From a virus: a DNA stretch of 27,929 nt. Under the pieces are notes generated by a model. It searched no databases. It saw only the letters and a program-made list of their open reading frames with translations, and was not told where the DNA came from. The position numbers were made by a program, and so were the translations under genes. This document shows positions 14,324-22,609 of the stretch, piece by piece. The stretch is from the IMG/VR virus record IMGVR_UViG_3300003690_000096, positions 1 to 27,929 of that record; one strand, given 5' to 3'. Within the stretch, counting starts at the first letter, position 1. Each line of letters begins with the position of its first letter.

Positions 14324-14351
14324 TTGACATCGCGTCCTACATTATGATAAT
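14324..14351 (+). promoter_or_regulatory. Promoter P2 of accessory operon
   Basis: TTGACA (14324-14329), 16-nt spacer, GATAAT (14346-14351). The spacer holds GTCCTACA (14334-14341), the reverse complement of the TGTAGGAC octamer. The predicted start near 14358 leaves only about 9 nt before the first ATG at 14367. Confidence 0.7.
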
Positions 14352-14366
14352 ACTTTAATTCATAAA

Positions 14367-14621
14367 ATGCTGAACAGCCCGAACGCCAACGTCAACCGGT
14401 GGAGCAACGGGTTCGTCCTCTACGCGACACATTCCGATGGACGGGCTGCGTACATCCGCGAGTACCGCGCGCCCGGTTGGGACACGCGTCGGCGGACGGT
14501 CTACCAGACGAAGCTATCCACGGACACCCATCCGTGGCCGAATCCTCGTCACCCGCGCGCCATCGGCGTGACCAAAAAGAACGGATGGATCGTGGAGAAC
14601 AATAATGCCAAATCTGCGTGA
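14367..14621 (+). CDS. Hypothetical protein, first gene of accessory operon
   Basis: An 84-residue protein beginning MLNSPNANVNRWSNGFVLYA, rich in Arg, Asn, Thr and aromatic residues, with a YIREYRAPGWDTRRRTVY segment. It starts about 9 nt after the predicted P2 transcription start with no ribosome binding site, so initiation would be near-leaderless. It overlaps the following acetyltransferase gene by 17 nt. The composition suggests a small beta-rich basic protein. No family was recognised. Confidence 0.6.
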   Translation: MLNSPNANVNRWSNGFVLYATHSDGRAAYIREYRAPGWDTRRRTVYQTKLSTDTHPWPNPRHPRAIGVTKKNGWIVENNNAKSA

Positions 14622-15072
14622 AGCCACGATGGGCGACATGGCGATGATGTTTGACTGGTGCAACGATCCAGGGATGCGAAAATATTCGCACAACTCTAGT
14701 CCGGTGCCTTGGCTCGATCATGAAAAGTGGTACGTCGCCAAGATGGACGAGAACCCGAAGCGTGTCTGGATCGCGTGCGAGGATGATCACGCGATTGGGT
14801 ACGGGCGCGCCGACGCCAAGGTCAACTACCGCGCACTTGTCAGCGTGGGACTAGACGAGGTGTGGCGTGGTCTGGGTGTGGGGACATGGCTAATCCGGCA
14901 AGTCACCGACCGACTGGTGGCCCAAGGACTCACGCCTGTAGCTCACATCTATCCGGCGAACAGCGCGTCGATCCACGCGTTCGTTGCCGCCGGGTATGTG
15001 CATCACGGATTGATTGGAGACAAGTACCATGAGTACAGATACGCATCAGACGATGCACGAGTACTGGGCTAA
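14605..15072 (+). CDS. GNAT-family N-acetyltransferase
   Basis: A 155-residue protein with the GNAT layout: N-terminal REATMGDMAMMFDW helix, the central beta strands VWIACEDDHAIGYGRAD, and the acetyl-CoA binding loop RGLGVG (residues 88-93, R/Q-x-x-G-x-G pattern). A C-terminal NSASIHAFVAAGYV segment (119-132) is typical of the last helix and strand. The N-terminal half (RKYSHNSSPVPWLDHEKWY) resembles acetyltransferases of amino-sugar pathways such as PseH-like enzymes, which fits the neighbouring cytidylyltransferase and aminotransferase genes. The likely reaction is acetyl transfer from acetyl-CoA to an amine, possibly on a sugar nucleotide; the substrate is unproven. Confidence 0.88.
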   Translation: MPNLREATMGDMAMMFDWCNDPGMRKYSHNSSPVPWLDHEKWYVAKMDENPKRVWIACEDDHAIGYGRADAKVNYRALVSVGLDEVWRGLGVGTWLIRQVTDRLVAQGLTPVAHIYPANSASIHAFVAAGYVHHGLIGDKYHEYRYASDDARVLG

Positions 15073-15202
15073 GGAGTTCACTCGACGCGCAGACCTGAAG
15101 CGCACCTTGCCCGATCCCAAGGCCGAGGCGTACTGGCGCGCGCGAGCCGAGCGAGAGATGAGGTGGAATGATGGTGCATCTACAAAAAGAATGGGAGGGT
15201 GA
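15029..15202 (+). CDS. Small hypothetical protein
   Basis: A 57-residue charged protein starting at ATG 15029 with GGAGA (15016-15020) upstream. It overlaps the end of the acetyltransferase gene by 44 nt and the next gene by 35 nt. It is helical and rich in Arg, Lys and Glu, with Trp residues (HEYWAKEFTRRADLKRTL and AYWRARAEREMRW). A slightly longer start exists at 15014. The Trp/Arg repeat pattern H/A-Y-W-x-x resembles part of the hypothetical protein encoded at 16181 (KYWNDMADKLARDG), which may point to a shared small helical module. No function is recognised. Confidence 0.6.
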   Translation: MSTDTHQTMHEYWAKEFTRRADLKRTLPDPKAEAYWRARAEREMRWNDGASTKRMGG

Positions 15203-16178
15203 GCGCAGACCGTTTCACGCTGTTCAGCGTGAGCAACTTGTTCTTGGGCACTGGGACGAATACGTTGACAGCCATCCTGATGGGTGGTGGTTTCATCGAT
15301 CCGAATGGTTGGCGTATTCACTGGAGTATTCCCCTGGTTCCATCGACCGGTCGGTGGCATTGGTGGATACGGGGTACGGGAACGTCATTGGGATCTGTCC
15401 TGCCATTTCCGAGAACGGCTGGATATCAATGGGCGGGGAACCGTGTGCTGGGCCATTGCTGAATGCGGCTGTAGATTACGCGGACGCGCTGGACAGTTTC
15501 ACCGAATACGGATTATTCAAAGATGGCAAAGTTGCATGGCGCTGGCCCGATAGATTATTGAATAATAACGTGACGGGGGACGGCTTCGCGCGTGTTCTCA
15601 GCAACGCTCCAGACTGGTTCGTTGGAGATTGGTCAACCGTTGTGGTGGACCTAGAGAAGCCCCAGGACACGCTCTGGCACGACTTGAGGAAAAGCTACCG
15701 CTCCACGATTAAAGCGGCTCACTGGACGTGTGAGGCAGTCACAGGGGGCATCGAGCGATGGGACGAATATGAAGCGTGTCACAAGGCGGCTGCGAAACGA
15801 CCGCGCTCCCAGGCTACCTACAACCACATGCGCGACTGGGTGAAGTCAGGACACGGGCGGATCGCGGTGGTGCTGGATCAGAATCAGGCGTGTGTCGCCG
15901 CGACGTTGGCGCTGACCTACAAGAATCACGCGTACTACGCAAGCGGTCCATCGGTGGTGCGCGGAATGCAGCACGCGTGTCAATGGGCCATGATCAAGGA
16001 CTTACAGGATCAAGGGATGCGGTGGTACGAAATCGGCTGGACTGGACAGCCCGGTGCCAACGCGAACATCGAGTTCTTCAAGCGTGGGTTCGGTGGAGAT
16101 ATGCGTGGTATTATCGTGGCGATGTTCAGACCCGACCTCCCTGTTCAGGGGGATGAGCCTTCAGTAATGGATTACTGA
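15168..16178 (+). CDS. BioF2/FemAB-like GNAT acyltransferase
   Basis: A 336-residue protein of the two-lobed GNAT_6/BioF2-like (FemAB-related) type. The N-terminal lobe has HWDEYVDSHPDGWWFHRSEW. The C-terminal lobe includes LRKSYRSTIKAA, RIAVVLDQNQACVAATLAL, YYASGPSVVRGMQHACQWAM and the end signature YEIGWTGQPGANANIEFFKR followed by GFGG. That ending matches the typical pattern in which an Asn-x-x-x-x-FK-x-x-FG segment closes the acyl-CoA fold. Such enzymes transfer acyl or aminoacyl groups to sugars, peptides or polysaccharides. ATG codons at 15168 and 15171 both fit; a GAGGTGG site lies upstream. It is the second acyltransferase in the operon. Confidence 0.82.
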   Translation: MMVHLQKEWEGERRPFHAVQREQLVLGHWDEYVDSHPDGWWFHRSEWLAYSLEYSPGSIDRSVALVDTGYGNVIGICPAISENGWISMGGEPCAGPLLNAAVDYADALDSFTEYGLFKDGKVAWRWPDRLLNNNVTGDGFARVLSNAPDWFVGDWSTVVVDLEKPQDTLWHDLRKSYRSTIKAAHWTCEAVTGGIERWDEYEACHKAAAKRPRSQATYNHMRDWVKSGHGRIAVVLDQNQACVAATLALTYKNHAYYASGPSVVRGMQHACQWAMIKDLQDQGMRWYEIGWTGQPGANANIEFFKRGFGGDMRGIIVAMFRPDLPVQGDEPSVMDY

Positions 16179-16180
16179 CG

Positions 16181-16660
16181 ATGCGTATTGATTCCGTACG
16201 ATATCCCAACGTCTTTCCCCGCACCGTCAAGAAGAAGCCGGGTGAATGGGCCGGACGGTACCAGGAATGGCGCGCGCGCGTCCCCTGGTCAGATAGTGAA
16301 ATCATTTACGCGATGCGACGGCTAGCCGAGACTCACCCGGCACCGCACGTCAAGAAGTACTGGAACGACATGGCGGACAAGCTAGCAAGAGATGGCCGCT
16401 TGAGCGGGAAGGTTCTCAGCGGCGTGTTACCTGATCTGGTGCTGCTCTGCGATGAGTGCGGGAAGAAGGCGTTGTACCGCGTGGGGTTCAAGGGGTATTG
16501 CCGAGAACACAAACGCACGGATACCAGTGGGCGACAGGACCGGCTGAATGCGTGGTCTATCCTGAAAGCCAACGCCTACTATGAACATGATCGCCGAATA
16601 ACAAAAAGGCAAAACCATCACCTCGCGCGCGGACTACGGAGAACAGGCCCACGTGACTAA
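16181..16660 (+). CDS. Zinc-finger-like hypothetical protein
   Basis: A 159-residue basic protein starting 2 nt after the previous gene. The second half has CDECGKKALYRVGFKGYCREH, with Cys90, Cys93, Cys107 and His110 in a C-x2-C-x13-C-x2-H pattern that probably binds zinc. The N-terminal half is helical with Trp/Arg-rich segments (GRYQEWRARVPWSDSE and KYWNDMADKLARDG). The C-terminus is Arg/His-rich. It overlaps the cytidylyltransferase start by 8 nt. It could be a nucleic-acid-binding accessory protein; no named family was recognised. Confidence 0.7.
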   Translation: MRIDSVRYPNVFPRTVKKKPGEWAGRYQEWRARVPWSDSEIIYAMRRLAETHPAPHVKKYWNDMADKLARDGRLSGKVLSGVLPDLVLLCDECGKKALYRVGFKGYCREHKRTDTSGRQDRLNAWSILKANAYYEHDRRITKRQNHHLARGLRRTGPRD

Positions 16661-17393
16661 GCGTGTGGTGGTCATCGTGCAGGCGCGCCTTGGAAGTGAT
16701 CGGCTTCCGCGCAAGGTACTGGCCGACATCACCGGCAAGCCGATGATCGCGCATGTCATCGAGCGCGCCAGTGCGATACGCGGCGTGACCTGTGTGATCG
16801 GCGCGGTTCCGACCGACGACACTGACCTGATCGATGTGCTGCGTGATCTGTACGTGGATACCGTCATGGGGTCTGAGGATGACGTGTTGTCCCGGTTCGT
16901 GTTGGGTGCAACTCTGCATCAGGCTGACATCGTCTTGCGTGTCACGGGCGACTGTCCGCTGTTGGCACCCGAGGCGGGTGATGAAGTGGTTGATCGGATC
17001 TCAGGCGAGTGGCCTGACCTGGAGTATTGCAGCAATGACACGCTCGTGTCGGGGTGGCCGGATGGTACCGATGTGGAGGGGTTTACGCGTGGGCTGCTCG
17101 ACCGATCACAGGGCGTGAGTCTGACTGCTTATGATCGTGAGCATGTGACGCCGTGGATGCGACGGAACGCTGCGCGGGTGTCCACTGTGGATTGGACTGC
17201 TGACCCGCGTGACACGTTCGCTGCTGGTGTAGCGTCCTTGAAGTTGAGCGTGGATACCGCTGACGACTTGCAGCAAGTGCGCGACATCCACGGGAACCTC
17301 ATGGACCTTGGAGGCTCCGGTTCGTTTTCGTTGCCTGCGACTGTCGCTGCTGCGTCTCTCACACAGAACGGCTCGTTGATTTGCGCGCCATGA
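16653..17393 (+). CDS. SpsF-like CTP-dependent sugar cytidylyltransferase
   Basis: A 246-residue protein starting at GTG 16653. The N-terminal signature VQARLGSDRLPRKVL (residues 9-23) is the nucleotide-binding loop of the CTP_transf_3 (SpsF/NeuA/KdsB) superfamily. RVTGDCPLL (96-104) provides the metal-binding Asp, and WPDGTDVEGF (135-144) and YDREHVTPW (160-168) are SpsF-subfamily hallmarks. KLSVDTADDL near the C-terminus completes the fold. The family activates sugar acids or other sugars as CMP conjugates for spore-coat, capsular or O-antigen glycans. It overlaps the aminotransferase start by 4 nt (ATGA), a pairing frequent in bacterial glycan loci. The sugar substrate is unknown. Confidence 0.9.
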   Translation: MTKRVVVIVQARLGSDRLPRKVLADITGKPMIAHVIERASAIRGVTCVIGAVPTDDTDLIDVLRDLYVDTVMGSEDDVLSRFVLGATLHQADIVLRVTGDCPLLAPEAGDEVVDRISGEWPDLEYCSNDTLVSGWPDGTDVEGFTRGLLDRSQGVSLTAYDREHVTPWMRRNAARVSTVDWTADPRDTFAAGVASLKLSVDTADDLQQVRDIHGNLMDLGGSGSFSLPATVAAASLTQNGSLICAP

Positions 17394-18673
17394 CCAAGGC
17401 ACTTCGGCGCAGCCCACTCGGTGCGTTCAGTCTGCGAGAGGTGGTGTCCGACGAGGATCTGTACAAGCGCGCCATCGAGGTGACGCCGAAGGGCACACAG
17501 ACGTTCAGCCGAATGCGCGGGGCGGTTGGCACGTCCGAGTATCCGATCTTCGCCGAGAGCGCGGACGGCGCATATCTCCAGTGTCGTGACGGCACCAGAT
17601 ACATCGATCTCGCTGGTGCTAACGCGTCGGCCCCTCTGGGCTTCAACGATGAGGCTGTCTGCGAAGCGGTGTGGGAACACGTTGGGACAGGTGGCACCTT
17701 GTCGCTCCCGACCGAGCTTGAGGTGGAAACGTCTGAGGCGTTGGTGGCGGCGGTGCCTGCCGCTGAACAGGTGCGGTGGGTTCGCACCGGCAGCGAGGCT
17801 GTCAGCGCGGCGGTGCTGACAGCGCGACAAGCCACCGGGCGACATGCTGTCCTAGCCATCACTGGGAACTACCACGGGTGGCATCCCTGGACGCGTGACG
17901 ACCGGTCAATCTATCGGGTGTCTCCGTGGGTGGAGAACCTGGATGGTGTGTCGATACTGATGACTGGCGCGCAACTCGAATCCGGCCCATTCACCGGAGA
18001 CGCCACGGACATGCGACAGGTCGCGGCGGTGATCGTGGAACCACCCAGGATGGAACCCATCACCCCGGCGTATCGAGCGTGGTTGCAAACGGTTCGTGAT
18101 CAGTGTTCAAGTTTCGGGACGCTGCTCGTCTATGACGACGTGGTGTTCGCCTTCCGGTTCGTCACTGGAGGGTTGCAGCAAGCGACGGACATCTATCCAG
18201 ACATCGCATGTTTCTCGAAAGCGTTGGGGAATGGTGTGCCGGTTGGATGTATCGCAGGCACGCGCGCGGTCATGAGCGGCACGCCTGTGAGTTCCACGTT
18301 CGGAGGTGAGACGGTCGGACTGGCTGCGGCACAGGCGGTGCTGGCTATTCATGCCGAGCGGGACGTATGCGCGGAACTGCATGAGGTTGGCACTCTACTG
18401 CGCGCGACGCTGGAGAAGGCGCTGGACGGCACCCCGATAGAAGTGTATGGGACGCCCGTGCATTTCCGATTTCAAGTGAAGCAGCAGGTCGATGAGGAAG
18501 AGAGGCCGGACATCATGGATGCGTTCCTGAACGGGTGCCTGGAGAAGAACGTCCTGGTGCATCGCAGCGCGAACAACGCATCCTTGGCGATGACCAAAGC
18601 CGTCCGAGCTAAGATTGGGTTCGCGGTCGAGGCGGCAGCGCATGGCTTGGATTGGGGGGGGAATGGCGAATAA
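17390..18673 (+). CDS. GSA-type PLP aminotransferase/aminomutase-like enzyme
   Basis: A 427-residue class III PLP enzyme of the glutamate-1-semialdehyde 2,1-aminomutase-like family. Visible motifs are DGTRYIDLAGANASAPLGF (substrate-proximal region), RTGSEAVSAAV (132-142), NYHGWHPW, EPPRMEPI, LLVYDDVVFAFR (Asp249 for the pyridine nitrogen), FSKALGNG with the Schiff-base Lys277, and STFGGE. The canonical D-E-V-x-x-G-F-R is altered to D-D-V-V-F-A-F-R here. Next to an SpsF-like gene it more likely aminates a sugar or keto precursor than makes haem. ATG 17390 is chosen because it gives the ATGA overlap; an upstream TTG at 17381 is possible. Confidence 0.9.
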   Translation: MTKALRRSPLGAFSLREVVSDEDLYKRAIEVTPKGTQTFSRMRGAVGTSEYPIFAESADGAYLQCRDGTRYIDLAGANASAPLGFNDEAVCEAVWEHVGTGGTLSLPTELEVETSEALVAAVPAAEQVRWVRTGSEAVSAAVLTARQATGRHAVLAITGNYHGWHPWTRDDRSIYRVSPWVENLDGVSILMTGAQLESGPFTGDATDMRQVAAVIVEPPRMEPITPAYRAWLQTVRDQCSSFGTLLVYDDVVFAFRFVTGGLQQATDIYPDIACFSKALGNGVPVGCIAGTRAVMSGTPVSSTFGGETVGLAAAQAVLAIHAERDVCAELHEVGTLLRATLEKALDGTPIEVYGTPVHFRFQVKQQVDEEERPDIMDAFLNGCLEKNVLVHRSANNASLAMTKAVRAKIGFAVEAAAHGLDWGGNGE

Positions 18674-19292
18674 GAAAACCGAGTTGGCCGAACTGGAAAA
18701 ACTGGTAAGTCTGAAACCTGACACGGTCAACGCGAACACCGGCACGGTGCGTGGCACGGCGATGCTGGAGCGATCCCTTCAAGATTATGGGGCTGGGCGT
18801 TCTATCCTGGTGGACAAGCACAAGAACGTCATTGCGGGAAACAAGACCCTGGAAGCAGCGGTTGGGATTGGGGTTGAGGACGCCCTTGTGGTGCATACCA
18901 CCGGGGAACAACTGGTGGTCGTCGTGCGCGATGACCTTGATCTCAACACAGACGCGCGCGCGCGGGAACTAGCAGTTGCCGACAATCGGGTGAGCGAAGT
19001 CAACCTGACGTGGGCGGTGGACATGCTGCAAAAGATCGAGGGTCAGGGCGCAATGTTAGACAAGTTCTTCACGCCCAAGGAAACAGAGATCCTCCTGCAA
19101 CAATCCCTCGCGTTTGTACCTGAGACGAACCCAGAGTTCTCCAACAAGGAAGTCACTGACGGCGAGATCAGTAGCGTGAAGGACCGCCTTGGTTCTAAGT
19201 TTTCGGACGTAGCTAGCGAGTCGGCGCGCGCGGGGCGCGAGGTGGTATGTCCTGGGTGCGGGAAGGCGTTCGTTGTGTCAGGTGGAGACTGA
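18663..19292 (+). CDS. ParB/sulfiredoxin-fold protein with C-terminal CxxC
   Basis: A 209-residue protein starting at ATG 18663 after a G9 tract that acts as ribosome binding site. It overlaps the aminotransferase by 11 nt. The N-terminal half (ANTGTVRGTAMLERSLQDYG, then AGRSILVDKHKNVIAGNKTLEAA) is the ParB-like nuclease/Srx fold seen in phage proteins that accompany methyltransferases. LAVADNRVSEVNLTW is another hallmark. The C-terminus ends in CPGCGKAFVVSGGD, a single C-x2-C knuckle that would need a partner to bind zinc. These phage ParB-like proteins are not partition proteins; they may use nucleotides or nick DNA. Confidence 0.85.
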   Translation: MANKKTELAELEKLVSLKPDTVNANTGTVRGTAMLERSLQDYGAGRSILVDKHKNVIAGNKTLEAAVGIGVEDALVVHTTGEQLVVVVRDDLDLNTDARARELAVADNRVSEVNLTWAVDMLQKIEGQGAMLDKFFTPKETEILLQQSLAFVPETNPEFSNKEVTDGEISSVKDRLGSKFSDVASESARAGREVVCPGCGKAFVVSGGD

Positions 19293-20159
19293 GTGACTTT
19301 TGAATCCCTGGATCGATTCGCGTCCTTGATGCGGGAGTTGCCGTTCAAGTTCGTGAAGTCGATGCCGCGTTCACCGCACTTCTACACCCTGCGGAAGTGG
19401 TTGCCAGACGGTTCGGTGTTCGACTGGTGCGTGGAGTTTATCAAGACCGAAGGGCACACCGAGCAGTTCATGAACCTGCCCTACACGAAGGTGCATGTGA
19501 ACGGGCATCACTACTGGGTCACTGACTCGCTGTACGAGGATGGTTCTGTCCTGATCAATCGAGCCTTGGCTAATTACCACACGGATTTTTGTGCGTTGGC
19601 CGAGCGGTATGACACGCTCTTCTGTGATCGCACCAGCCTGGATGAGAACACGACCGTGATGGAAAGCATCCGTGGTGAGAATCAGCATGAGGATGTGCGC
19701 GAGTTTGGTGGCGTACGTGACCAGCGGGTTCTTGACATTGGCGCAGGGACTGGTTTGCTCTTGGATTATTTCGGGTCCGAGATCGCGGTGGAAGACTACG
19801 TCGCCGTGGAGCCATCCAAGCCGATGGGGAAACAGTTCTGCATCAAGCATCCGTTGTATGTGGGGTGTCTGATTCCGACCATGTTTGAGAACTTCGCGCA
19901 TGGCAAGTTCGATCTCGTGGTGTCCACTTTTGGGGCGATCAGCTACGTGCGCCCAGAGTACGTGTCCCGCGTGGTGGAGATGCTGAATCCTGGTGGCCGG
20001 TATTTCCTGATGTTCTACCTGGAGGGATACGATCCCGTGTCATGCGTGACGACCGGCATGGCGTCTCACCATTTCACTGGTGGGGAGCAGCGCCTGCTTG
20101 ATGGCGGCGACTGTCGCACATACAGCAATTTCATGATCTGCGAAGGCAGCATCCCGTGA
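19293..20159 (+). CDS. Class I SAM-dependent methyltransferase with N-terminal accessory domain
   Basis: A 288-residue protein starting at GTG 19293, immediately after the previous stop, with a GGTGGAG ribosome binding site. Residues of about 20-125 form a domain (KSMPRSPHFYTLRKWLPDGS, HHYWVTDSLYEDGSVLINRA) of a kind I recall beside IbrA/IbrB-like genes. The methyltransferase core follows: motif I RVLDIGAGTGLLL (145-157), AVEPSKPM as the acidic motif II, FDLVVSTFGAISYV as motif IV, and LNPGGRYFLMFYLEGYD as the motif V region. No DPPY-type or PCQ-type DNA methylase motif is visible, so the target could be a small molecule, RNA or modified base. Confidence 0.82.
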   Translation: MTFESLDRFASLMRELPFKFVKSMPRSPHFYTLRKWLPDGSVFDWCVEFIKTEGHTEQFMNLPYTKVHVNGHHYWVTDSLYEDGSVLINRALANYHTDFCALAERYDTLFCDRTSLDENTTVMESIRGENQHEDVREFGGVRDQRVLDIGAGTGLLLDYFGSEIAVEDYVAVEPSKPMGKQFCIKHPLYVGCLIPTMFENFAHGKFDLVVSTFGAISYVRPEYVSRVVEMLNPGGRYFLMFYLEGYDPVSCVTTGMASHHFTGGEQRLLDGGDCRTYSNFMICEGSIP

Positions 20160-21301
20160 AAATCTTCCTTGAACACAACGTGTACGAAGGCGCACTGGCG
20201 CGGATTCGATATCTGTTTAACGAGTTCGAGAATCTGTATGTGAACTTCTCTGGAGGGAAAGACAGCACGGTGCTGTTGAACTTGACGATCCAGGTCGCCA
20301 CGGAGATGGGGCGTCTTCCGGTCAAGGCGATGTTCCTCGACCAAGAGTGCGAGTGGGAATGTGTGATCGAGTTCATGCGTCGCACCGCGAAACGTGACGA
20401 GGTGGAGTTCAGTTGGTTGCAGGTTCCCACCAATATGTTCAACGCCAGTTCTGAGATCATGGCGTGGAATCGAGCCTGGGAAGAAGATGCCGAAGACAAG
20501 TGGGTGCGCCCAAAGGAACCGGACTCCATCCATGAAAATGTCTACAAGGAGTACCGCTTCGACGATCTATTTGAAGGGCATCGGCGGTATCACCATCCGA
20601 ACGAACCCTGCGTGTCGCTGGCCGGTGTGCGCGTCGAGGAAAGCCCAGCCAGGAAGATGGGGCTGACTTCCTATCCCACGTACAAGCATCTGACGTGGGG
20701 CGCGAAAAAGGATGTGAAGCGCGGACACTACGTGATGTATCCGCTGTACGACTGGTCATACACGGACATCTGGAAAGCAATCCATGACGGCGGCTGGGAC
20801 TATTGCCGGTTGTACGATCTGGAATACAAGTACGGGCAGAACGCGCGCGACATGCGCGTGTCCAATGTGCATCATGAGACGGCCCTTCAGAACGTCATGT
20901 TCTTGCAGGAGTTTGAACCCAAGACCTTCAACCGGATCACGAAACGTCTGTCGGGGTTGCACGCCGCTGCGACTATCGGGATGCGGTACATCCGGCCACC
21001 GCGTGAGTTGCCGTTCATGTTCAGTGACTGGCGCGAGTATCGAGATCACTTGCTGCACAATTTAATTCAGGACGAAGACATTCGTGAACGGATGCGAACA
21101 CAATTTGAAAAACACGATCACATCTTCGATGAAGAAATCCATGACGAGTTGCGGAAAAAACAAATCGCCTGCATCTTGAGCAACGACTATCACGGCAGCG
21201 CGATGAATACGTTCAGGGCGGGACACGGGAAATACTTGAAGGCGGGGAAGTTCGCGGGTGGGAAGTTCAAGGGTGGCAAGCTGCGGAGCAAACATGCCTG
21301 A
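20156..21301 (+). CDS. ibrA: IbrA-like PAPS-reductase-family (PP-loop) protein
   Basis: A 381-residue protein starting at GTG 20156 with a 4-nt overlap. NFSGGKDSTVLLNL has the PP-loop SGGKDS (residues 32-37) that binds and cleaves ATP to adenylate. The following MFLDQECEWECVIEFMR and the C-terminal VSNVHHETALQNVMFLQEFEPKTFNRI match the DUF3440 IbrA-type branch of the PAPS reductase family. The family also resembles DndC, which works in DNA phosphorothioation, but true PAPS-reductase catalytic Cys motifs were not recognised. The C-terminus is Gly/Lys-rich (GKFAGGKFKGGKLRSKHA). It is paired with an IbrB-like gene 0.26 kb downstream. The gene symbol is by resemblance. Confidence 0.85.
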   Translation: MKIFLEHNVYEGALARIRYLFNEFENLYVNFSGGKDSTVLLNLTIQVATEMGRLPVKAMFLDQECEWECVIEFMRRTAKRDEVEFSWLQVPTNMFNASSEIMAWNRAWEEDAEDKWVRPKEPDSIHENVYKEYRFDDLFEGHRRYHHPNEPCVSLAGVRVEESPARKMGLTSYPTYKHLTWGAKKDVKRGHYVMYPLYDWSYTDIWKAIHDGGWDYCRLYDLEYKYGQNARDMRVSNVHHETALQNVMFLQEFEPKTFNRITKRLSGLHAAATIGMRYIRPPRELPFMFSDWREYRDHLLHNLIQDEDIRERMRTQFEKHDHIFDEEIHDELRKKQIACILSNDYHGSAMNTFRAGHGKYLKAGKFAGGKFKGGKLRSKHA

Positions 21302-21566
21302 CGGAATTTTGCTTGCGGACGGATTAGGGGAGGCGTTGATCGGCCTGGGCCGTCGTTGTGGTCAGCCGGACGTGGCGGTCTACTCCATCCCGAAAGCCAT
21401 CGCGCTGCTCGTACGTCGTGACGAGATGAGCGAGGACGACGCGCGGGAGTATCTGGAGGTCAACAGCATCGGCGCGTGGGTGGGTCCGGCGACGCCGATC
21501 TGGGTGGAAGCGATGACGCTGGATGAGATACACGCCTACGCAGACAAGGAGTGGCGCGAGCGATGA
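21294..21566 (+). CDS. Small conserved protein between ibrA- and ibrB-like genes
   Basis: A 90-residue acidic protein starting at ATG 21294, overlapping the IbrA-like gene by 8 nt. The pattern LLADGLGEALIGLGRRCGQP, then VAVYSIPKAIALLVRR, then DEMSEDDAREYLEVNSIGAW and VGPATPIWVEAM resembles small proteins of unknown function seen in many phage genomes. It is probably an alpha/beta protein. The ATG is preferred over the longer upstream start at 21258, which would lie deep in the previous gene. It may assist the IbrA/IbrB-like pair; this is inferred only from position. Confidence 0.8.
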   Translation: MPDGILLADGLGEALIGLGRRCGQPDVAVYSIPKAIALLVRRDEMSEDDAREYLEVNSIGAWVGPATPIWVEAMTLDEIHAYADKEWRER

Positions 21567-22258
21567 AAATGGAGTTCATCCAATTCCAAGATGCCCTGGA
21601 GAAAATCGAGGAAGCCTTTGAACGTATTGATGATGATGAGTTTAGAATTGACGCGCTGAACTTTCTTCAAAGTCAGATCCGTAATCTCACGCCGCTCCAC
21701 GATCAACCCGTGAGTGGTGTGATGTGGGTGCCGCTTGAAAAAGTGGAAGCCAATGACTACAACCCCAACACGGTCGGCGCGCGCGAGATGCAACTGCTTC
21801 AGGTGTCCATCGATCACGATGGGTACACGCAGCCGGTGGTGACGATCCACGATGAGGAACGGGACGTGTATGTGATCGTGGACGGGTTCCATCGGTACTT
21901 CGTGATGAAGTCATACGAGGCACTCCGCACACGGACGCACGGCAGGTTGCCGGTGGTGGTGATTGACAAGTCCATCAATGATCGCATGGCGTCAACCATT
22001 CGGCATAACCGCGCGCGTGGCAAGCATTCGATAGATGGCATGTCCAGGTTGGTGTTCAAGATGCTCGACAACGGATGGGCTGACGCAGCGATCTGCAACG
22101 AACTCGGGATGGAAGCGGAAGAATTGATCCGACTGAAACACATCACCGGATTCTCCAAGCTGTTTGCGAACGTGGAGTACCGCAAGGCGTGGGTGGCACG
22201 TACCCAGATCAAACTGGCACACGACGCCGGTGTGAAGAATGTAGATTTCTTGCCGTAA
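21563..22258 (+). CDS. ibrB: IbrB-like ParB/Srx-fold protein
   Basis: A 231-residue protein starting at ATG 21563 in an ATGA overlap (alternative GTG at 21551). After a helical acidic N-terminus, the core reads DQPVSGVMWVPLEKVEANDY, then NPNTVGAREMQLLQVSI, YTQPVVTI, IVDGFHRYFVMKS and RMASTIRHNRARGKHSID. These are signatures of the IbrB/ParB-like family, with VDGFHR (106-111) in the nucleotide-binding loop. The C-terminal helical part (LGMEAEELIRLKHITGFS) is a helix-turn-helix-like spacer. IbrB works with IbrA in enterobacteria as a regulator of immunoglobulin-binding protein expression. In phages the role of the pair is not known. It is the last gene of the operon. Confidence 0.88.
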   Translation: MKMEFIQFQDALEKIEEAFERIDDDEFRIDALNFLQSQIRNLTPLHDQPVSGVMWVPLEKVEANDYNPNTVGAREMQLLQVSIDHDGYTQPVVTIHDEERDVYVIVDGFHRYFVMKSYEALRTRTHGRLPVVVIDKSINDRMASTIRHNRARGKHSIDGMSRLVFKMLDNGWADAAICNELGMEAEELIRLKHITGFSKLFANVEYRKAWVARTQIKLAHDAGVKNVDFLP

Positions 22259-22280: not shown

Positions 22281-22335
22281 CCCAACGAATACGGGCCTAA
22301 AATAATCTTATTTATTTTGCGAATATCCTTGACAT
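22281..22335 (+). repeat. 55-bp direct repeat, right copy
   Basis: Matches 14063-14117 at 50 of 55 positions with no gaps. Like the left copy it ends in a TTGACAT -35 box. The 8218-bp spacing exactly brackets the accessory operon. Confidence 0.85.
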
Positions 22336-22357
22336 TGTAGGACGCTGGACGTACAAT
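22329..22357 (+). promoter_or_regulatory. Promoter P3
   Basis: TTGACA (22329-22334), 17-nt spacer, TACAAT (22352-22357). The spacer begins with TTGTAGGACG, holding TGTAGGAC at 22336-22343, and has a second GGAC further on (CTGGACG). The AT-rich UP-like run precedes it. It drives the small gene at 22394. Confidence 0.8.
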
Positions 22358-22393: not shown

Positions 22394-22609
22394 ATGCTAA
22401 CCATGACACAGACGATGACCCGCGACGAAGCAGAGCATTTCTACACGTGGCTGGAGAACACGGTGGACATGGAAGATCAGCATGAGATCGAGCAACGCGT
22501 CCATCAGTTGATGCGCGCGAAGGGATTCCTGCGTGGGCTGGATTTATCGCGAGCGATCAAGGTTGCACACGACGAGTTGCGCTACACACTTTTACTGAGA
22601 GGGCGCTAG
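22394..22609 (+). CDS. Small hypothetical acidic/helical protein
   Basis: A 71-residue protein starting at ATG 22394 with a GAGGAG ribosome binding site, about 30 nt after the predicted P3 transcription start. It is helical with EHFYTWLENTVDMEDQHEIE and a C-terminal basic part (RAIKVAHDELRYTLLLRGR). It is the only gene between P3 and the convergent leftward block and is probably expressed early or strongly. Its stop codon overlaps the stop of the opposing gene. No family was recognised; it could be a small regulator or host-takeover protein. Confidence 0.7.
   Translation: MLTMTQTMTRDEAEHFYTWLENTVDMEDQHEIEQRVHQLMRAKGFLRGLDLSRAIKVAHDELRYTLLLRGR

Follow-up and report, generated by a model that had tools for sequence, protein, structure and literature searches.

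The 27,929-nucleotide virus record IMGVR_UViG_3300003690_000096 of IMG/VR (the whole of this 27.9-kb stretch is called the window below) carries two genes of the IbrA/IbrB type known from Escherichia coli: one encodes a PP-loop protein (PP; 20156-21301), the other a protein of the ParB/Srx fold (ParB2; 21563-22258). Comparison with related loci reveals that PP and ParB2 travel together with a second ParB-like protein (ParB1; 18663-19292) and with a domain of about 90 amino acids (the N-domain), which in the window is joined to a methyltransferase (19293-20159). Together the four constitute the conserved parts of a cassette, with PP and ParB2 as its core, in which one position – the slot – is filled by exchangeable enzymes. 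This is seen in gene content, in linkage, in fusions between the parts and in the exchange of slot enzymes; moreover, PP lacks conserved cysteines. The interpretation we favour, and to which we attach even confidence, is that PP and ParB2 form the centre of a cassette with which phages modify nucleic acid, most likely phage DNA, the slot enzymes being plug-in components.

Proteins of this pair are usually labelled a sulfur-metabolism enzyme and a DNA-partitioning protein and have been little studied; the slot pattern turns them into a testable enzyme system. An earlier note on this DNA had recognised PP by the motif SGGKDS at residues 32-37 and ParB2 by VDGFHR and NRARGKH, all of which are present as described, and had likened the two to IbrA and IbrB, a resemblance that holds over the full length of both proteins. 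It further envisaged a unit of four genes comprising PP, ParB2, a small intervening gene and the upstream methyltransferase. PP and ParB2 are indeed tightly linked, and random assortment fails as a description of their distribution; among the cassette loci, however, the small gene is confined to the window, and the methyltransferase is but one member of an exchangeable set. This last point goes beyond the earlier note, as does the existence of ParB1. The unusual N-terminal domain that had been remarked upon in the methyltransferase, whose gene lies just outside the region then delimited, is real and has proved the most informative part.

Four linked parts

Evidence that the pair belongs to the IbrA/IbrB family came firstly from comparison with the K-12 paralogues YbdN and YbdM. 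In hhalign, PP and YbdN align over 362 columns with 25% identity (E 9e-69), and the comparison of ParB2 with YbdM gives 41% identity (E 1e-54); judged by sequence, the phage and bacterial proteins are full-length homologues. PP is of full IbrA length and carries both SGGKDS, present in 56/60 PP proteins, and GxRxEES; ParB2 adjoins PP and contains the DG[FY]HR motif common to all 57 ParB2 proteins. The genes ybdN and ybdM are likewise adjacent, their products being annotated 'putative PAPS reductase/DUF3440' (PAPS, 3′-phosphoadenosine 5′-phosphosulfate) and 'ParB-like nuclease domain'. Profile scans of the window place PP in Pfam PAPS_reduct (E 1.5e-17) and phrog_2302 (9e-77), and ParB2 in phrog_2159 (1e-69). 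The bacterial and phage pairs differ in their surroundings: the flanks examined around the chromosomal pair contain no N-domain, ParB1 or slot enzyme, whereas the phage pair sits in a cassette. The E. coli ibrA/ibrB pair is said to activate prophage gene expression, and phage records name the pair 'co-activator of prophage gene expression'; among the open-licence papers searched we found no settled biochemical role for it.

The two genes have almost the same distribution. Relatives of PP occur in 215 of 50,697 named phage records and relatives of ParB2 in 218, nearly the same set, with identical counts for phages of Flavobacterium (90), Mycobacterium (55), Streptococcus (21), Arthrobacter (12), Bacillus (6), Microbacterium (5) and Rhizobium (4). 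ParB2 lies beside PP or within about 1 kb of it in 14/15 annotated phage loci, the exception being Microbacterium phage Leaf, where PP is the last gene and ParB the first gene of a linear record. PP followed by ParB2 was the order in 16/16 bacterial genome loci, and PP relatives are also present in 586 of 72,556 PLSDB plasmid records, chiefly from Klebsiella (323) and Escherichia (183). A tandem duplication, PP-ParB2-PP-ParB2, is seen in two loci (L088:3280-6543 and L089). Leaf itself, a cultured phage, has consecutive genes for a glycosyltransferase, an acetyltransferase, a methyltransferase and PP (90181-95340), with ParB as gene 1.

Linkage of the four parts was counted in loci with at least 3.5 kb of flank on both sides, non-redundant at 95% identity of the anchor; those from the PP and N-domain scans were the best 80, so that the set leans toward close relatives. 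PP-anchored loci contained ParB2 in 38/39 cases, ParB1 in 37/39, the N-domain in 33/39 and all four parts in 32/39. When the N-domain was the anchor, PP was present in 33/35, ParB1 in 32/35 and ParB2 in 31/35; with ParB2 as anchor the counts were 30/30 for PP, 24/30 for ParB1 and 21/30 for the N-domain. The collection searched comprises 2.9 million contigs, and in it both search patterns are rare – at least 583 occurrences of the PP pattern were confirmed among the 600 matches listed, and 272 of 294 for the N-domain – and the linkage is therefore not due to chance. A second set, used for all counts out of 107 below, comprises loci with both N-domain and PP that are non-redundant at 90% PP identity (105 from IMG/VR, the window and Leaf); ParB1 lies no more than 4.5 kb from PP in 102 of these. 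In relatives, members of terminase and portal families repeatedly lie near the cassette.

The two ParB-like proteins are distinct. For ParB2 the Pfam ParB_N match is sub-threshold (19.0 bits, cut-off 26.3), and GERR, the canonical ParB nucleotide-binding motif, occurs in 0/57 ParB2 proteins, all of which carry NxAxGxH together with DG[FY]HR. In sequence it comes closest, among informative structures, to Noc, ParB and SerK; the SerK serine kinase cut-off is missed (NCBIfam NF053625, 14.2 against 380). ParB1 matches phrog_620 (8.5e-17) and, across profile positions 37-169 of 633, phrog_498 'DNA methyltransferase' (6e-14), matches that identify it as the type of ParB-like protein that phages also carry in fusion with DNA methyltransferases. 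According to a survey, ParB-fold proteins bind CTP, ATP or GTP, and those of phages frequently share a polypeptide with a DNA methyltransferase domain (PMC12704722).

The N-domain emerges from the window's methyltransferase, whose hidden Markov model (HMM) hits many open reading frames (ORFs) of about 90 amino acids through its first 90 or so positions alone. HMM matches and alignment place the domain at approximately residues 9-110 (19317-19622), with the consensus W.FAKTMP..PH.YT.R...YWTMG.P...T.INR and invariant P, H, Y, W and N; it is a separate and apparently undescribed family. It stands alone in 72 of the 107 loci and is fused to a methyltransferase in 32 and to an AdoMetDC-like protein in 3. 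Searches of Pfam and PHROGs with two stand-alone copies gave nothing beyond one chance-level Pfam match. The AlphaFold2 model is confident (pLDDT, the predicted local distance difference test score, 94.5), and its best matches in the PDB (E 0.52; Z 4.2) are at noise level, which does not in itself make the fold new; BFVD yielded one match, A0A516LRX9 (E 1.9e-8), of unnamed function. A tblastn search with one stand-alone N-domain found 0/50,697 named phage records, while the HMM detects a diverged N region in the methyltransferase of Leaf. No description of the cassette or the N-domain was found in the open-licence papers searched, which does not establish that none is in print. The presence of the domain can serve as a marker of the cassette. 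Elsewhere, at L238:5971-7761, it is fused to an AAA_23/SMC-like ATPase with no PP nearby: a second architecture, and a DNA-type ATPase again.

Exchange of enzymes in the slot

The slot consists of one to three genes from a short list, placed between the N-domain and PP and sometimes between PP and ParB2, and a slot enzyme is present in 104/107 loci. The classes are S-adenosylmethionine (SAM) methyltransferases (MTd, 41 loci), S0a (resembling DNA amino-methyltransferases with DPPW, 31), the glycosyltransferase-like S1 (30), the GNATs of S2 (22), S0b (14), a second glycosyltransferase-like class, S3 (9), a second GNAT (7), an HxD..H oxygenase-like class (4) and an AdoMetDC-like class (4). The best PDB match of S0 is to adenine DNA methyltransferases of the DpnA/MboIIA type (E 9e-9), and of 41 mixed slot proteins 6 match Pfam N6_N4_Mtase. 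S2 matches GNATs (E 5e-11) and the AdoMetDC-like class has a match at E 4e-9; S1 matches more weakly, to phrog_854 'glucosyltransferase' (1e-7, in 7 of the 41) and heparosan synthase (E 0.011). A PDB profile search with the HxD..H class was empty, and we take its motif to be of the oxygenase type. The GNAT-type class is shared with Mom of phage Mu, a GNAT-fold enzyme of adenine modification; profile similarity to Mom is nevertheless absent (hhalign probability 0.2), the window's slot holds a methyltransferase, and a Mom-like GNAT slot was rejected.

Of particular relevance to the DNA is that S0 and ParB1 match two different parts of the fused family phrog_498. The cassette differs from such ParB-DNA methyltransferase fusions in keeping the genes separate, with S0 proteins of about 180-230 amino acids. 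S0a and S0b occur together in 8/107 loci; [DSN]PP[WYF] is kept in 68/83 S0a proteins and in 1/35 of S0b, a contrast not fully independent of the split, which was itself made by sequence motif. The pattern suggests a heterodimer in which S0a is the catalytic subunit and S0b a degenerate one. Fusions also tie slot to core: N-domain and methyltransferase are joined in 43 ORFs, N-domain and AdoMetDC-like protein in 4, and an S3 protein is joined to PP in one locus (L161). The AdoMetDC-like proteins (fused to the N-domain at L042:3399-4076, L049:3181-3840, L130:5743-6387 and L154:6327-7004, but not at L109:1914-2285) raise the possibility of decarboxylated-SAM (aminopropyl) or amine chemistry.

The slot and the core have different histories. 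On a FastTree phylogeny of PP (103 of the 107 rows, PP ORFs shorter than 330 amino acids being left out; 31 forks open), S0a changes state 24 times against 26.9 with shuffled labels and S1 23 times against 25.5, whereas the position of ParB1 changes only 6 times against 24.2. Because S0a and S1 change at near the shuffled level and ParB1 position far below it, the core is inherited as a unit while the slot is exchanged, S0a and S1 swapping almost freely.

Possible chemistry and competing explanations

A critical issue is the reaction catalysed by PP. The invariant residues of its alignment include S32, G34, K35, D36, S37, D62, E64, G157, E162, R166, D199, W200 and D204. At most 35 of the 60 proteins have cysteine in any one column, and in the column with that maximum the window has alanine; CxxC occurs in 1/60. 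The catalytic motif of the PAPS reductase CysH is a C-terminal ECG[LIF]H; it is found in 0/60 PP proteins. PP also falls short of the curated NCBIfam cut-offs for CysH (TIGR00434, 16.0 bits against 165.1), CysD (TIGR02039, 35.4 against 396.6) and DndC (TIGR03183, 24.1 against 290.4), and with CysH motif and conserved cysteines absent from the 60 proteins, membership of these three families was rejected. DndC-like chemistry, a possibility raised in the earlier note, is not supported.

The closest solved PP-loop structures by sequence profile are CysD, a sulfate adenylyltransferase (3e-10), and human FAD synthase, an FMN adenylyltransferase (4e-9), followed by PAPS reductase; in a comparison of folds FAD synthase leads (Z 16.6), with CysD (Z 15.8) and adenosine 5′-phosphosulfate (APS) reductase (Z 15.7) so close behind, within about one unit, that the three are tied. 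PP differs from FAD synthase and CysD in an extra C-terminal helical region, residues 278-364, barely covered by structure matches, and in an unrelated gene context. Since PP lacks conserved cysteines and the CysH motif, neither sulfur chemistry nor PAPS reduction is supported. Nearest folds and missing thiols together make PP look like an adenylylating enzyme, the absence of thiols rendering this its most economical activity. Of the sulfur- or adenylate-dependent chemistry once suggested for the pair, then, only the adenylate type survives, as the nearest structural analogy.

We envisage the following. PP would bind ATP through its SGGKDS loop and adenylylate the substrate with release of pyrophosphate; ParB2 would be its obligate partner, binding a nucleoside triphosphate (NTP), and together with ParB1 would bring the enzymes to DNA. 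The N-domain would act as an adaptor coupling slot enzyme to core, and the slot enzyme – in the window a SAM methyltransferase – would supply or attach the final chemical group. With a constant core and a variable group, phages could alter the chemistry of their mark through a one-gene swap, as expected of a means to evade restriction or other DNA-sensing defences; the adjacency of terminase in relatives would fit late action, before packaging. The DNA substrate, the adenylylation, the order of reactions and the anti-restriction role are what we infer here.

We favour modification of DNA because each cassette has two ParB-fold proteins, because ParB1 and S0 match phrog_498, because S0 is DpnA-like and because relatives have terminase genes alongside the cassette. 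A precedent exists in phage S-B43, where CmoA-CmoX-CmoY hypermodify cytosine to carboxymethylcytosine by means of a DNA methyltransferase homologue and an AMP-forming ligase; ParBc genes are found in the neighbourhood (PMC12783734). The likeness lies in a methyltransferase-type enzyme combined with an AMP-forming one, and in the ParBc neighbours; CmoY is described there as asparagine-synthetase-like, and the core proteins differ. The window's methyltransferase, the one protein scanned for this, matched no NCBIfam model of the CmoA family at E 0.1.

Several observations count against a DNA-modifying cassette, in addition to the lean toward close relatives mentioned above. Relaxing the flank requirement to 2 kb lowers the ParB2-anchored counts (PP 36/40, ParB1 15/40, N-domain 7/40), the distance between N-domain and ParB2 being greater than 2 kb. 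K-12 ybdN-ybdM and three further loci (L259, L261 and L262) have neither N-domain nor slot in the flanks examined, and the pair must therefore have a role independent of both; conversely, the N-domain occurs without PP in L238 and L191, and three of the 107 loci (L028, L084 and L112) lack a recognised slot enzyme. Slot-class genes number 5.2 per 10 kb between the N-domain and ParB2 and 0.24 per 10 kb elsewhere in these loci, an enrichment of about 21-fold that is partly circular, since some of the loci counted had also supplied the training sequences for the slot HMMs. MTd (13 changes against 31.4) and S2 (13 against 20.1) are partly inherited rather than freely swapped. APS and PAPS reductases tie with FAD synthase and CysD, so fold alone delivers no adenylyltransferase verdict. 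Finally, the clearest DNA enzyme, S0a, is present in only 31/107 loci and not in the window, whose methyltransferase has as its best PHROG one annotated 'tRNA methyltransferase', and generic methyltransferases, GNATs and glycosyltransferase-like proteins could equally well act on RNA, protein or sugars.

This last point leads to the main rival, which we think somewhat unlikely: that PP adenylylates and the slot enzyme decorates a target other than DNA, be it phage or host tRNA or other RNA, a virion protein or a cell-surface glycan. The PP-loop enzymes TilS and NcsA/TtuA act on tRNA and are structural neighbours of PP at lower Z; the glycosyltransferase-like and GNAT slots would suit such a target, as would the tRNA annotation just mentioned, and the cytidylyltransferase, aminotransferase and FemAB-like genes of the window resemble sugar or amino-sugar metabolism. 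The sugar-type genes, however, are specific to the window, and two ParB-fold proteins per cassette, a DpnA-like slot class and the grouping of ParB1 with DNA-methyltransferase fusions all speak for DNA. Improbable in our view is a transcription regulator, in which ParB2 would be an NTP-switched DNA clamp, modulated by PP, that activates phage or host genes. The 'co-activator' annotation of phage records agrees with it, and the ParB-related VirB activates genes via a CTP-dependent switch (PMC10770331); regulation leaves unexplained the exchangeable group-transfer enzymes of 104/107 loci and the fusions, and ParB2 proteins uniformly have DG[FY]HR and lack the canonical GERR. We give still less credence to an anti-defence or nucleotide-pool system of NTPase or nuclease type, with ParB2 and ParB1 degrading DNA or NTPs and the remaining genes as passengers: ParB/Srx-fold proteins with NTPase or nicking activity have been described (PMC5512222), but passengers would not occupy a defined slot or become fused to the N-domain and PP.

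The two explanations that invoke sulfur fare worst. Phosphorothioation of DNA, with PP transferring sulfur and ParB2 in the role of DndB, is very unlikely. The Dnd, Ssp and BREX type 4 systems (DndC, SspD and BrxP with DndB) do have a PP-loop protein in common with the cassette and, in Dnd, a ParB-fold partner, and some 56 residues of PP match the DndC HMM weakly (E 1.5e-5; PADLOC DndC/BrxP about 1e-5). PP nonetheless scores far below the DndC cut-off and is without conserved cysteines, whereas DndC possesses both a cysteine dyad and an Fe-S cluster (PMC10853773). Least credible of all is an auxiliary metabolic role for PP as a PAPS reductase boosting host sulfate assimilation, despite the database names of phrog_2302 and Pfam PAPS_reduct and despite phage papers that assign it, such as one on a Psychrobacter phage, whose protein may or may not be a PP relative (PMC10434257). 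It is contradicted by the missing CysH motif, by the CysH HMM score and by the strict linkage of PP to ParB2. Our findings suggest that the label 'PAPS reductase' is mistaken for many phage proteins.

Returning to the DNA-modifying cassette, a wider version, possible but more doubtful than the narrower one, is of a widespread, undescribed phage system in which PP and its ParB/Srx partner would activate a position in DNA, and the N-domain and ParB1 would present it to the plug-in enzyme. Methyl, acyl, glycosyl, aminopropyl or hydroxyl-derived groups might then give rise to new base or backbone marks, and E. coli ybdNM and ibrAB might represent domesticated or minimal forms of the system that influence transcription by way of a DNA mark. 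A fixed core with interchangeable enzymes points to an unrecognised phage means of chemically marking DNA; if the DNA reading is true, new DNA chemistry could be reached in modular fashion, and the cassettes would amount to a store of marks against restriction.

The gene run of the window

ORF calling and profile scans of the window's proteins (Pfam, PHROGs, NCBIfam and PADLOC) place the cassette at the end of a run of plus-strand genes, 14605-22258, separated by very short gaps or overlapping; the tape measure, capsid and prohead protease genes are on the opposite strand. Ahead of the cassette, all on the plus strand, are accessory genes: near the start of the run, a window-specific GNAT acetyltransferase (14605-15072; Pfam Acetyltransf_1, E 5e-12) with no relative among the other loci; a putative FemAB/GNAT-like acyl- or aminoacyl-transferase (15168-16178) with weak matches to NCBIfam FemAB_IMCC1989 (7e-10, below cut-off) and Pfam Acetyltransf_6 (0.0025); a 159-amino-acid protein (16181-16660) with no clear family in the Pfam, PHROGs and NCBIfam scans; a CTP-dependent cytidylyltransferase of the CMP-sugar type (16653-17393; Pfam CTP_transf_3, E 1.9e-24); and a class-III aminotransferase resembling glutamate-1-semialdehyde aminomutase (17381-18673; Pfam Aminotran_3, E 2.5e-39). 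The last two have no relative in the other cassette loci searched and, like the FemAB-like gene, were rejected as cassette members, being present in the window alone. The cytidylyltransferase and aminotransferase (16653-18673) may supply an activated sugar or amine to the cassette or to a surface glycan.

The cassette proper follows on the same strand. ParB1 begins at the in-frame ATG at 18663; the methyltransferase fusion, whose catalytic domain matches Pfam Methyltransf_12/23/25/11 (E about 1e-6), overlaps PP by 4 nt (GTGA), and PP, of 381 amino acids, starts with GTG. PP in turn overlaps the small gene (plus strand, ATG at 21294, 21294-21566) by exactly 8 nt, as the earlier note had it, and the small gene overlaps ParB2 by 4 nt (ATGA); the PP and ParB2 genes of the window are translationally coupled. 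ParB2, read from its ATG, contains HNRARGKH.

The protein of the small gene (90 amino acids) belongs to a family of unknown function (phrog_13182, 9e-20), with homologues in 9/50,697 phage records (8 Bacillus phages and one other); the other cassette loci searched contain no counterpart. It lies outside the conserved core, and its candidacy as a partner of the pair was rejected.

Sigma-70-like matches between 13.9 and 22.9 kb number three, which is chance level, and all lie before or after the gene run. One candidate, in the gap before it (14324-14351, plus strand), reads TTGACA-16-GATAAT and agrees with consensus at 11/12 positions; another near-consensus candidate, TTGACA-17-TACAAT (22329-22357), is found just past the cassette, upstream of an orphan ORF at 22394-22609.

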